From Aptenodytes patagonicus (taxonomy: Eukaryota; Chordata; Aves; Sphenisciformes; Spheniscidae), in NCBI RefSeq assembly GCF_965638725.1, contig NC_134950.1, forward strand, positions 23,340,932 through 23,404,931: a stretch of DNA of 64,000 nucleotides, given 5' to 3'. The translations under genes were made by a program, and so were the position numbers. Shown in pieces: positions 23,838-45,115 of the stretch. Within the stretch, counting starts at the first letter, position 1. Each line of letters opens with the position of its first letter. A model generated the notes under the pieces. That model saw nothing but the letters and a program-made list of their open reading frames with translations. It was not told where the DNA came from and searched no databases.

Positions 23838-24093
23838 TGTCCTGGTTTTGGCTGGGATAGAGTTAATTTTCTTCGTAGGAGCAGGTATAGTGCTGTGTTT
23901 GGGATTTAGGATGAGAACAATGTTGATAACACACCGATGTTTTAGTTGTTGCTAAGCAGTGCTTACACTAGTCAAGGACTTTCCAGCTTCCCGTACTCTA
24001 CTGACTGAGAAGGCTGGAGGTGCACAAGGAGCTGGGAGGGGGCACAGCCAGGACAGCTGACCCAAACTGGCCAAAGGGACATTCCATACCATG

Positions 24094-24116
24094 TGACGTC
24101 ATGCTCAGTATATAAA
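24094..24116 (+). promoter_or_regulatory. LTR core promoter: CRE and TATA box
   Basis: TGACGTCA, a perfect cAMP response element, lies at 24094-24101. TATATAAA follows at 24109-24116, seven bases further on. Transcription would be expected to start roughly 25-30 bp downstream, near 24140. This is the U3/R promoter of the LTR, and both elements are intact despite CpG decay elsewhere in the copy. CRE-binding factors (CREB/ATF) are the expected ligands from knowledge of the motif; activity is not shown by the sequence. Confidence 0.75.
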
Positions 24117-24217
24117 CTGGGGGAAAGCTGGCTGGGGGGACCGCTGCTTGGGGACTGGCTGGGCATCAGTTGGCAGGTGGTGAGCAATTGCATCGTGCAT
24201 CACTTGCTTTGTATATT

Positions 24218-24254
24218 CTATTATTATTATTATTATCATCATTATTATTATTAT
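24218..24254. repeat. ATT-rich trinucleotide microsatellite inside the LTR
   Basis: ATT units, interrupted by ATC ATC, lie within the R region just upstream of the polyadenylation signal. The tract is probably a family feature of this LTR that varies in length between copies; that is inference. Confidence 0.85.
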
Positions 24255-24263
24255 ATTGCAATT

Positions 24264-24269
24264 ATTAAA
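24264..24269 (+). terminator. LTR polyadenylation signal ATTAAA
   Basis: ATTAAA is the common variant of AATAAA. It is followed by a T/G-containing stretch (CTGTTTTTATC) and lies downstream of the TATA box by about 150 bp, as expected for the end of R in an LTR. Confidence 0.6.
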
Positions 24270-24406
24270 CTGTTTTTATCTCAACCCATGAGTTTTCTCA
24301 CTTTTACGCTTCCGATTCTCTCCCCCATCCCACCCAGGCAGGGGAGTGAGTGAGCGGCTGTGTGGTGCTCAGTTGCCAGCTGAAGTTAAACCACAACAGT
24401 CCTTTT

Positions 24407-24436
24407 TGGCACCCAACGTGGGGCTTGAACCCATGA
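24407..24436 (+). promoter_or_regulatory. tRNA-Lys primer binding site with extended tRNA homology
   Basis: The first 18 nt (24407-24424) match the complement of the 3' end of tRNA-Lys(CUU type) with one change. The similarity does not stop at 18 nt: it runs on through the T-arm to 24436, making 30 nt with three differences. Every difference is a transition at a CpG of the tRNA complement (CpG to CpA at position 5, CpG to TpG at positions 20 and 28). The site sits 8 nt after the LTR end. The tRNA comparison is from memory of the tRNA sequence. Confidence 0.8.
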
Positions 24437-24444
24437 AAGGTTTG

Positions 24445-24504
24445 AGATTAGCATGGCCCCTGTGCAAGGATGACACGCAAATTCGTGAAGCGTTCCATAT
24501 TTTT
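24445..24504 (+). ncRNA. U6 snRNA 3' segment (nt 48-107) inside the ERV
   Basis: The stretch begins AGATTAGCATGG and runs through GATGACACGCAAATTCG to CGTTCCATATTTTT. It matches vertebrate U6 snRNA from nucleotide 48 to the terminal T-run, 60 nt with one difference: C66 is T, again a CpG-to-TpG change. The 5' stem-loop and the ACAGAGA box are missing, so this is not a functional U6 gene. It is in the same orientation as the provirus, flanked on the left by the primer site and 8 nt of spacer and on the right directly by pol. There is no target-site duplication around it and no added A-tail, which argues against a LINE-made U6 pseudogene landing inside the provirus. In frame 24346 it contributes exactly 20 sense codons. 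Confidence 0.95.
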
Positions 24505-25485
24505 GCTCATGTACCCAAGAGTCAGGCCACTGAAGAACATCAAAACAACCAGCAGGTGGATGAGGCTGCTAAGATTGAAGTGGCTCAGCTGGATCTGGGC
24601 TGGCAACATCAGGGTGAATTATTTATAGCTCGGTGGGCCCATGACACCTCAGGCCATCGAGGAAGAGATGCAACATATAGATGGGCTCGTGATCAAGGGG
24701 TGGACTTGACCATGGACACTATTGCACAGGTTATCCATGAATGTGAAACATGCGCTGCAATCAAGCAAGCCAAGCGGTTAAAGCCTCTTTGGTATGGAGG
24801 ACGATGGCTGAAATATAAATATGGGGTGTCCTGGCAGATTGGTTATATCACAGTCCCACAAACCCGCCAAGGCAAGCGCCATGTGCTCACCATGGTGGAA
24901 GCAACCACCGGCTGGCTGGACACATATCCCGTGCCCCATGCCACCGCCCAGAACACTATCCTGGGCCTGGAGAAGCAAGTCTTATGTTGACATGGCACCC
25001 CAGAAAGAATTGAGTCAGACAACGGGACTCATTTCCAAAACAACCTCATAGGCACCTGGGCCAAAGAGCACGGCGTTGAGTGGGTACATCACATCCCCTA
25101 TCATGCACCAGCCTCTGGGAAAATCAAACGACACAATGGACTGTTAAAGACTACGCTGAGAGCAATGGGTGCTGGGACGTTCAAACATTGGGACACACAT
25201 TTAGCAAAGGCCACCTGGTTAGTCAACACGAGGGGATCTGCCAATCGAGCTGGCCCTGCCCAGTCAAAACTTTTACATACTGTAGAAGGGGATAAAGTCC
25301 CTGTAGTGCGTGTAAAAAATATGCTGGGGAAGACAGTCTGGGTTATTCCTGCCTCAGGCAAAGGCAAACCCACCCATGGGATTGCTTTTGCTCAAGGACC
25401 TGGGTGCACTTGGTGGGTGATGCAGGAGGATGGGGAAGTCTGATGTGTACCTCAAGGGGATTTGATTTTGGGTGAGAATAGCCAA
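24505..25485 (+). pseudogene. Retroviral pol remnant: RNase H end plus integrase
   Basis: The first codons show the last RNase H motif (His, then Asn-Asn and Asp at residues 55, 67-68 and 72, counting from the ATG at 24346). Integrase follows. Its zinc-binding residues are His99, His104, Cys133 and Cys136 (HX4H, 28 residues, CX2C; codons at 24640, 24655, 24742 and 24751). In the catalytic core the first acidic position is Gly (codon 24841). The second Asp is intact (codon 25018). The third position, exactly 35 residues later, is Lys (codon 25126). Zinc binding may persist, but catalysis is lost. There are in-frame stops at 24988 and 25441; after each the same frame stays open, to 25485. There are no frameshifts. 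The protein would have inserted viral DNA into the host chromosome; this copy cannot. Confidence 0.93.
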
Positions 25486-25880
25486 TGATTTGAACTGTAT
25501 GATATTAATTGCTACATAATATTATATGCCATAACAATGGTATTACAGTAAGAATCACCTAGATTAATGAAGAATGAACTTTGATGAAACCGAGCAAAGC
25601 GCAGTGATGATGGAACCAGAACTGACTTCAACATGAAGCAATCCAACACCGCACACCATCTCCATCTTCCCTGCCCTGAAAGATTATTATGACAGATGGA
25701 GCCCAAAGTCATGGATTAAATGAACTCAACAAACATTTTATAGGGATGGCCCATAGACTAAGGGAATGATATCTGTGTGTGTATATATCAAAAGACAGGA
25801 AAAGGGGTGGTGATTAATGAGAATGTATTGGAAAGTGTGGGACCTGGGCATGACGTAGATGGTATAGAATAAGGTTGATG
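25444..25880 (+). mobile_element. 3' internal non-coding region of the ERV, no env, no 3' LTR
   Basis: After pol comes AT-rich sequence without a frame, in keeping with elements of this type that lack env. It includes a purine-rich AAAGGGGTGGTGATTAATGA-like stretch and a GACCTGGGCATGACGTAGAT block just where the polypurine tract and 3' LTR should follow. Instead the sequence passes into unrelated DNA at about 25875-25890. The boundary is by eye. Confidence 0.6.
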
Positions 25881-31357: not shown

Positions 31358-31608
31358 TTCATAGAATCATAGAATCATAGAATCATTGAGGTTGGAAAAG
31401 ACCTCTAAGATCATCGAGTCCAACCGTCAACCCAACACCACCAGGCCCACTAAACCATGTCCCTAAGCGCCTCATCTACACGTCTTTTAAATACCTCCAG
31501 GGATGGGGACTCCACCACTTCCCTGGGCAGCCTGTTCCAATGTTTCACCACTCTTTCAGTAAAGAAATTTTTCCTTACATCCAATCTAAACCTCCCCTGC
31601 CGCAACTC
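31358..31608 (-). mobile_element. CR1 LINE 3' end, 5'-truncated
   Basis: Read on the minus strand, this is the CR1 3' end. The plus strand shows the reversed tail (three ATAGAATC units), then GAGGTTGGAAAAGACCTC, AAGATCATCGAGTCCAACC, a 3' UTR-like stretch and the complement of the ORF2 end (CAGCCTGTTCCAATGTTTCA, TCCTTACATCCAATCTAAAC). It is about 250 bp, shorter than the 10.5-kb copy and from a different subfamily, since its 3' UTR wording differs. Its 5' (right-hand) end is approximate. Confidence 0.96.
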
Positions 31609-44040: not shown

Positions 44041-44095
44041 TGTCCTGGGTCTGGCTGGGATGGAGTTAACTTCCTTAGGTCAATCCACCACAACA
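44041..44095 (+). mobile_element. 55-bp mini-LTR: both LTR ends, middle deleted
   Basis: It begins TGTCCTGGGTCTGGCTGGGA and continues TGGAGTTAAC, closely matching the first 35 bases of the LTR at 23838. It then jumps to TCAATCCACCACAACA, matching the LTR end at about 24383-24398. About 500 bp between the termini are missing. It therefore looks like a solo LTR that lost its interior. Flanks (ATGGT on the left, GTTAT on the right) do not form a convincing target duplication. Confidence 0.7.
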
Positions 44096-45069
44096 GTTAT
44101 TAAGAGGCTGTGGAGTCACTGTGCACAGGGGAGAAAATTAGGCCAATAGCTTTCCCAACGTGCAAAATGCTCCAGGATGTAGAGGACTCTTCTAAAAGTC
44201 TCTGCCTTTCTTGTATTACCCTGGTGTTGAAAATGCTGTAGCTCACTGGAAGATTCATGTTTTTCTTGCCAACTTGCCAGTTTCAATAATTTTGACACCT
44301 TGTGGCTTGTTTCACATAACCTTTGGATTATGTGAGCTCCAGCAGGACTCCTAGTGCGAGTAAGGCTGCAGGAGAGGAGTGCAGCTGGCTTGGTTACCTT
44401 CTGCAATGGCAGTATGCCAGGCTGGGAACCATGTCCAGGATCTGCTATACTGTATATTAGCAGGAATGGAAAATTGCTCCTTTTGCCCTATTTGCCAATC
44501 AAAATGGGATTTCTTTGAGCATGCTGTCTCTTTGAGCATGTCTTTGTCTCTCCTCTCACTGTCCCCCTCAAGTAGCTTTTGAAACCAGTGCCCAAATCCA
44601 GTCAGACTGGCAGAAGGGTGGAAATTTCAAGGAGAACAAGTTCCTCCATGTTTTGTGAAAACTGGTAGGTTATTAAAGGAAACCAGAATTAACAACCTTC
44701 TGCCCAAGGACACACGAGGAGAGTTCAGGTCTTCTTTATGCAGTTTAATCAGTTAAGACACACCGCTAGACTGGCCATGCCGCACGTGATGAAGTCCAGG
44801 GTTGCTACTGACATCATTTCTGGTCCAGCTAACATGTCCAAAACTGTCGATATGGAGTAGCAGGGGAGCTGAAGACAGAGTGTGACTGGCCTGCAAGCCC
44901 TGGGGATGAGCTGGGCACCCCATTGAGGCAGTTTGGAAATAGCAAAGGGAAGCTATAGGGAAATAGCAATAGGGAAGAACTGGAAGGATTTTGGAGCTGT
45001 ATGCAGATGTGGGGGAGGCTTGGGAGCCTTGTAGTGAAGAGTCATACGGGACATGGAGCAGGTCAGGAG
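44096..45069. other. Unique DNA between mini-LTR and CR1 sliver
   Basis: No gene is recognised. A 12-bp direct repeat (TCTTTGAGCATG at 44512-44523 and 44529-44540) is the only structure noticed. Confidence 0.5.
44512..44540. repeat. 12-bp direct repeat at 17-bp spacing
   Basis: TCTTTGAGCATG occurs at 44512-44523 and at 44529-44540, both identical, with CTGTC between them. Confidence 0.8.
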
Positions 45070-45115
45070 TCATAGAATCATTAAGGTTGGAAAAGACCTC
45101 TAAGATCATCGAGTC
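45070..45115 (-). mobile_element. CR1 3'-end sliver
   Basis: TCATAGAATCATTAAGGTTGG followed by AAAAGACCTCTAAGATCATC and GAGTC is the extreme 3' end of a minus-strand CR1, nearly identical to the same part of the copy at 31358. Only about 46 bp are present, so this is a very strongly 5'-truncated insertion. Confidence 0.92.

Follow-up and report, generated by a model that had tools for sequence, protein, structure and literature searches.

A U6 snRNA segment at the internal deletion joint of an endogenous retrovirus in Aptenodytes patagonicus, and tRNA-Lys run-through among its relatives

Introduction

Recombinants between snRNAs and retroviral RNA were proposed by Giles, Caputi and Beemon (2004), who also reported snRNA copies associated with long terminal repeats (LTRs) (cited in PMC4476161 and PMC4997597); these copies are called ancient in PMC4476161. 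In the light of that work, the statement in an initial annotation of the present locus that a retroviral counterpart of the U6/LINE chimeras is rarely or not described was too strong. According to PMC4997597, MLV and RSV package U6 RNA, with about one copy in each virion, and the patching of retroviral sequence with host RNA is known; retroviral deletions with insertions are described in PMC3187697. Plus-strand strong-stop DNA normally ends before m1A58 of the tRNA, unmodified tRNA is copied to its 5' end, and lentiviruses and spumaviruses carry a primer over-extension sequence (PMC13191261). In birds, few U6 copies are given for chicken, turkey and zebra finch, one turkey copy lying beside a CR1-like element, and none of them is tied to an endogenous retrovirus (ERV) in the passages of PMC4476161 that deal with these genomes.

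Our literature search found no report of U6 at an ERV deletion joint, which does not disprove that one exists. The locus described here is a clear germline example of the class proposed in 2004, and L002, another capture in the same genome but with the opposite polarity, adds weight to it.

Results

The U6 segment and the anatomy of the element

We analyzed a stretch of 64,000 nt (hereafter the window; G000:C2:23340932-23404931, NC_134950.1) in a genome of 1.35 Gb and 618 contigs. The initial annotation had placed U6 snRNA nt 48-107 exactly at the internal deletion joint of an ERV, in the sense orientation of the provirus. Rfam located U6 at 24444-24504 on the (+) strand, with the score listed in Table 1 (gathering score 44; E 1.9e-13). 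When up to 3 mismatches were allowed, a 37-nt U6 stretch occurred once in the window, where it differed from the usual U6 sequence at one position, and matched in 0/100 shuffles; chance similarity to U6 was rejected on the Rfam score and the shuffles. The terminal T5 of the segment occupies 24500-24504.

Table 1. Features of the window element (positions in the window)
Feature	Position	Strand	Evidence
5' LTR, TG...CA	23838..24398	+	start and end by comparison with family copies
Primer binding site, 18 nt, complement of tRNA-Lys(CTT) 3' end	24407..24424	+	sequence
Over-extended tRNA-Lys copy, 12 nt, complement of nt 58-47	24425..24436	+	sequence and comparison
Viral leader remnant AAGGTTTGAGAT; AGAT 24445-24448 common with U6	24437..24448	+	ordinary leaders compared, overlap computed
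U6 snRNA nt 48-107, natural T5 end	24445..24504	+	Rfam RF00026, 60.1 bits
Remaining pol: RNase H end, integrase zinc-binding and core pieces, in-frame stop 24988-24990	24505..25443	+	comparison, Pfam
Stretch between integrase and polypurine tract	25444..25874	+	similarity to other copies stops at 25874

With an LTR bounded by TG...CA, a tRNA primer binding site (PBS) and pol including integrase, the element is an LTR retroelement (endogenous retrovirus). Its LTR is 90.1% identical to that of the nearest among the fetched relatives (L016). The two LTRs and target duplication of a complete ERV are absent from the window copy, which has no LTR pair; relatives do have 5-bp duplications. The family is presumably ERVL (class III) or ERVL-like, the reverse transcriptase (RT) domain being missing in the window copy. 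Downstream of U6, Pfam detected the integrase zinc-binding domain at 25.7 bits, barely above the cut-off of 25.5, and the integrase core at 22.8 bits, under the cut-off of 32.6; a solved-structure search with the window integrase piece gave 0 matches. In two undeleted copies, L042 and L045, the leader is separated from RNase H by 4.26 and 4.30 kb, respectively, vs ~0.1 kb in the window. The window copy is thus ~4.3 kb shorter in this interval, and gag, protease and RT are gone, as the initial annotation had stated.

Comparison with other copies revealed no 3' LTR of the window element, and no target duplication was found (left flank GGTAC; no repeat behind an ACA end), which weakens the case for its integration as a unit. 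The right end was possibly lost before completion or removed by a later deletion. The element halts at 25874 inside the polypurine tract, the start point of plus-strand DNA. An open frame of 185 codons (24433-24987) begins with an ATG in the tRNA-derived stretch and runs through U6 into the integrase zinc-binding piece; it is probably a coincidence. Elsewhere in the window, 31364-31607 and 45067-45115 are interspersed repeat pieces with 94-96% identity to stretches in L043, L046, L056 and other ERV-bearing loci, and an isolated 36-nt match to the LTR start lies at 44041-44076.

The two joints

The annotated order of PBS and U6 stood, and what had been taken for a long PBS resolved into the 18-nt PBS and a 12-nt over-extended copy of tRNA-Lys. 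The PBS assignment is supported by tRNA-Lys(ctt) called by ARAGORN in the run-through relatives described below. In ordinary copies the tRNA-like stretch behind the PBS stops after about five letters, vs 12 in the window, and the read-through length in the window equals that in L075. By analogy, TYGAA after the PBS in this ERV family looks like a primer over-extension sequence.

At the 5' edge of U6, ordinary leaders read GGTTTGAGATAATAAC or near, U6 reads GAAGATTAGC and the window reads GGTTTGAGATTAGC; since the three readings agree there, AGAT is common to leader and U6. A match of this edge to the tRNA-Lys complement was considered and dropped, because ordinary leaders show that AGAT is viral leader sequence. 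At the pol-side edge, where ordinary copies have GTAGATGCTCATG, the window has TTTTTGCTCATG, with one T in common. All five loci inspected (L003, L004, L005, L007 and L008) read GTAGATGCTCA(T/C)GTACCC at the pol side, which places the resumption of pol at 24504/24505.

The microhomology that had been raised for both edges therefore amounts to 4 nt where synthesis would have returned to the leader and 1 nt where it would have entered U6. Among 200,000 random joints between the ERV copy L045 and the U6-like sequence L006, overlaps of at least 1, 4 and 6 nt arose in 44, 1.9, and 0.15%, respectively, so that 1.9% of random joints do as well as the return edge and 44% do as well as the entry edge, which is uninformative by itself. 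By eye, the U6 edges show neither A-tail nor target duplication, in agreement with the initial annotation, and no LINE 3' sequence.

Occurrence of the joint in the genome

We compared the leader region among related copies. The LTR-PBS query gave 3356 first-look candidates, of which 40 were scored and 30 of those 40 loci compared; near-identical pairs are present among them (for example L011/L012, L018/L019 and L031/L032). The leader was ordinary in 28/30, L013 had a longer tRNA continuation, and the remaining locus was the window itself. No U6 was seen by eye in the 110 printed letters of the other 29 leaders. U6 as a normal component of the leader, the case that the initial annotation had named as contrary to its reading, was rejected with 28/30 leaders ordinary. 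Contig C33 (48 Mb) held 14 of the 40 leader matches scored (of 3356 candidates), and two of its run-through loci (L048 and L049) are near-identical inverted neighbours ~42 kb apart. C33 is perhaps the W chromosome; W chromosomes are rich in ERVs (PMC8310711).

A genome search with the complete joint found one full-length match among the best 40 of 374 candidates scored (41 matches listed; repeat counts are lower bounds). A propagating chimeric subfamily was rejected on this result, and because of the single full-length match the U6 joint in the window looks like a one-off event, the first of the two outcomes foreseen in the initial annotation being excluded to that extent. In L041, also a deleted copy, the leader is ordinary and the joint plain. 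Rfam at gathering level, run on 40 of 76 loci, found U6 in L047 (the same element as L002) and otherwise tRNA only. Another U6-like locus, L006, appears full-length by eye and is 97% identical over 60 nt; outside U6 it has no similarity to the window ERV. Viral contigs scanned with the PBS/tRNA stretch and with the U6 stretch yielded 0 loci, in a collection from which records of the own or a near genome were possibly left out. Among the loci fetched, two U6 captures were seen in this ERV family, the window and L002.

A second capture of opposite polarity

L002 (C1:172874176-172874318; identical with L047, and fetched with wider flanks as L039) was found by the genome search with the joint and carries U6 beside the PBS. 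Its order is LTR, PBS, complete tRNA-Lys complement to the tRNA 5' end, antisense U6 from nt 107 to about 42 (Rfam, 73 bits), and antisense internal ERV sequence with 94% identity over 129 columns to L045; beyond this the sequence has no similarity to the fetched ERV loci. The LTR is 96.7% identical over 483 columns to the nearest fetched relative. No target duplication, recognized right end or LTR pair was found for L002. The joint between tRNA 5' end and U6 3' end is blunt by eye, and TCTCTG (6 nt; 0.15% of random joints) is common to U6 and ERV at the exit joint. The sole difference in the tRNA part, against the reference that we assumed for tRNA-Lys and with two isodecoder letters allowed, is A for T opposite nt 58. 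In both elements the U6 3' end is the entry point in the direction of DNA synthesis; the overlaps are 4 nt (window) and 6 nt (L002) at the exits, and 1 nt (window) and none (L002) at the entries.

tRNA-Lys run-through in relatives

A query made of the L002 LTR end and tRNA stretch gave 32 matches (32/32 candidates scored), and 30 loci (L047-L076) were fetched. One of them (L071) has no ERV match beside it, and L048/L049 look like two copies of one event. The copy extends to the tRNA 5' end in 15/30 loci, all 15 beside ERV-like sequence. What follows the tRNA copy varies: pol in the sense orientation (for example L053, L057 and L059), antisense internal ERV sequence (L051), leader (L075), LTR pieces (L056, L064 and L076), U6 (L002), or unrecognized sequence (for example L052, L055 and L069).

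The LTR start is recognizable in 19/30 loci. In seven of these 19 (six events) the left 5-bp flank is repeated behind an ACA end within the ~1.5 kb available; no such repeat was seen in that distance in the other 12, whose right ends may lie further out. Two are mini-elements consisting of an LTR, antisense tRNA-Lys (complete or partial) and only the last LTR letters, with exact duplications: L050 (C7:73823983 region; last 9 letters, 5-bp duplication AACCC) and L068 (C5:2523953 region; ~last 19 letters, 5-bp duplication GCGTG). Two others are built as LTR, antisense tRNA-Lys and internal ERV sequence and have two U3 termini: L048 (C33:43343132 region, with L049 as its inverted repeat copy) ends in the inverted first ~46 U3 letters with the exact duplication CTCTG, and L051 (C2:146525867 region) in an inverted copy of ~the first 23 U3 letters with the exact duplication GTACC, as might result from a fold-back of strong-stop DNA onto its 5' end. 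Weaker cases are L059 (TCTAC) and L075 (ACATC), which have 5-bp repeats and end at an internal CA. L061 (C2:32865274 region) is a mosaic of LTR end and leader, a short antisense piece, pol sense, antisense tRNA-Lys not preceded by an LTR, pol sense again and a whole inverted LTR.

Errors of strand transfer in this LTR family are thus evident both from the tRNA over-extension in the window copy and from the many relatives with run-through. The run-through elements are the more surprising part of these results, more so than the U6 capture.

The modification m1A58 in tRNA can cause misincorporation during copying. The letter opposite nt 58 was A in 10/25, T in 14/25 and C in 1/25 run-through events, after L049 (duplicate), L071 (not ERV), and L062, L072 and L074 (no letter) had been left out; the alignment is poor on one side in L066 and L067. 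In ordinary leaders, as counted from the printed letters, it was A in 2/28 and T in 26/28. The excess of A in the run-through events gives a Fisher P of 0.007 with relatedness included. Both sets were drawn by similarity to their query, which has A in L002 and T in the window. The frequent A might be a trace of m1A58 misincorporation, and we treat it as a lead only, since the sets are query-drawn, kinship is retained and most run-through copies carry T.

Discussion

We consider the window element an aberrant product of reverse transcription, made by template switching between RNAs, with a rough probability of 0.78. During minus-strand synthesis the viral reverse transcriptase would have left the genomic RNA within RNase H, entered the U6 snRNA 3' end with next to no homology, copied U6 as far as about nt 48-51 and switched back to the viral leader via the 4-nt match AGAT; this excursion would have cost the element ~4.3 kb and given it 60 nt of U6. 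During plus-strand synthesis, in the same or another cycle, strong-stop DNA may have read on into the tRNA-Lys primer as far as nt 47 and paired again at TGA(A), which would account for the seven extra letters after the PBS region. L002 would be the plus-strand counterpart: strong-stop DNA would have run to the tRNA-Lys 5' end, jumped end to end onto the U6 3' end, copied U6 to about nt 42 and continued on internal viral RNA via the 6-nt match. The anatomy, the joints, the polarity and the single occurrence of the window joint are read directly from the sequence; from these we infer that U6 was co-packaged, that the events took this order and that the viral enzyme was responsible.

The location of U6 exactly at the deletion joint and its natural 3' end speak for template switching, as do the exit overlaps in both elements, the strand-transfer errors of the family and the packaging of U6 by MLV and RSV; on the other side, every joint could in principle come from ligation or DNA repair. 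Copying of an RNA by a polymerase starts at or towards the RNA 3' end. Minus-strand synthesis runs from pol to leader, so a captured RNA should appear in sense orientation, its 3' end facing pol, as in the window; plus-strand strong-stop synthesis runs from the LTR to the primer tRNA, so a captured RNA should appear in antisense orientation, its 3' end facing the LTR, as in L002. Finding both predicted polarities, in two cases, favors RNA templates during reverse transcription and disfavors DNA filler. The minus-strand switch from pol to U6 to leader suggested in the initial annotation thus gains support from AGAT at the return edge and from the polarity of L002.

An identical window sequence would result if RNA ligation came first, which we regard as unlikely. 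A ligase (e.g., RtcB) would have joined the 2',3'-cyclic-phosphate end of U6 to a cleaved viral RNA whose 5' end lay in RNase H, and reverse transcription of the fused molecule would have needed a single template switch, at U6 nt 48, to reach the leader. L002 argues against RtcB, since there the 3' end of U6 adjoins the 5' end of a mature tRNA, which is normally phosphorylated and not accepted by that enzyme. A switch at the U6 exit is still needed in both elements. RtcB ligation is among the mechanisms that PMC13174262 lists for U6/LINE-1 chimeras.

Far less probable is an event at the DNA level, i.e., deletion within a full provirus after integration with a piece of a U6 gene or pseudogene as repair filler. 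DNA repair also gives short joint overlaps, and a U6-like locus, L006, is present elsewhere in the genome. Against this, the exact U6 3' end occurs in two independent elements with opposite, strand-specific polarity, and U6 in L002 directly follows a tRNA copy that is itself a reverse-transcription product.

A separate later insertion of a LINE-made U6 pseudogene, common as these are in mammals (PMC4476161), is hardly credible: the edges lack A-tail and duplication by eye, the insertion would have to strike a 4.3-kb deletion joint exactly, and PMC4476161 gives only three or four selected U6 copies per bird genome. Equally implausible is an assembly error uniting unrelated pieces; the joint, known here from the assembled sequence, consists of exact RNA ends and short overlaps and lies in a contig of chromosome scale, and L002 is a second, differently built element.

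Beyond template switching in the window, there is about an even chance that failed retroviral reverse transcription in one LTR family has been preserved in this genome like a fossil record, with repeated tRNA-Lys run-through, jumps and fold-backs that still integrated, a possible m1A58 trace, and the window as its minus-strand member. Strong-stop DNA would have passed into tRNA-Lys, up to its 5' end, and then jumped to any available template, whether this was viral sequence of either polarity, its own LTR or U6 of the host. Some of the products, folded back onto their own 5' end, would have acquired inverted U3 ends and inserted as transposon-like mini-elements flanked by 5-bp duplications.

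On the template-switching reading, the locus would provide base-level chromosomal evidence that a retroviral reverse transcriptase copies U6 RNA and thereby deposits its sequence in the germline. With two captures in both expected polarities, the mechanism becomes testable by counting. The ERV family also supplies natural examples of a failed tRNA stop at nt 58, a question that PMC13191261 treats from HIV-1 experiments.

Compared with known systems, the snRNA/viral recombinants of Giles et al. (2004) are the closest, in that a retroviral enzyme uses U6 as template and the copy comes to lie beside LTR sequence in the genome. Those cases come from mammalian genomes and are ancient or partly independent insertions as PMC4476161 presents them, whereas the window U6 has both edges resolved and lies at a deletion joint, and L002 is a second capture of opposite polarity. 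The U6/LINE-1 chimeras (PMC4476161; PMC13174262) are alike in that a reverse transcriptase leaving its own RNA enters the U6 3' end. They consistently carry full-length sense U6 at the 5' end of the insertion (PMC13174262); in contrast, the window has 5'-truncated U6, a return to viral sequence, and no A-tail or LINE-type duplication. In retroviral deletion and patch repair, as here, a third template bridges the deletion joint through short matches; unlike in the known cases, the patch in the window comes from a small Pol III RNA, retains the natural 3' end of that RNA and lies in an endogenous element. The tRNA over-extension described for plus-strand strong-stop DNA likewise copies beyond tRNA nt 58, also to the tRNA 5' end, but in the account of PMC13191261 only the shorter products work in second-strand transfer, whereas here the long ones are found in chromosomes, joined to other templates.
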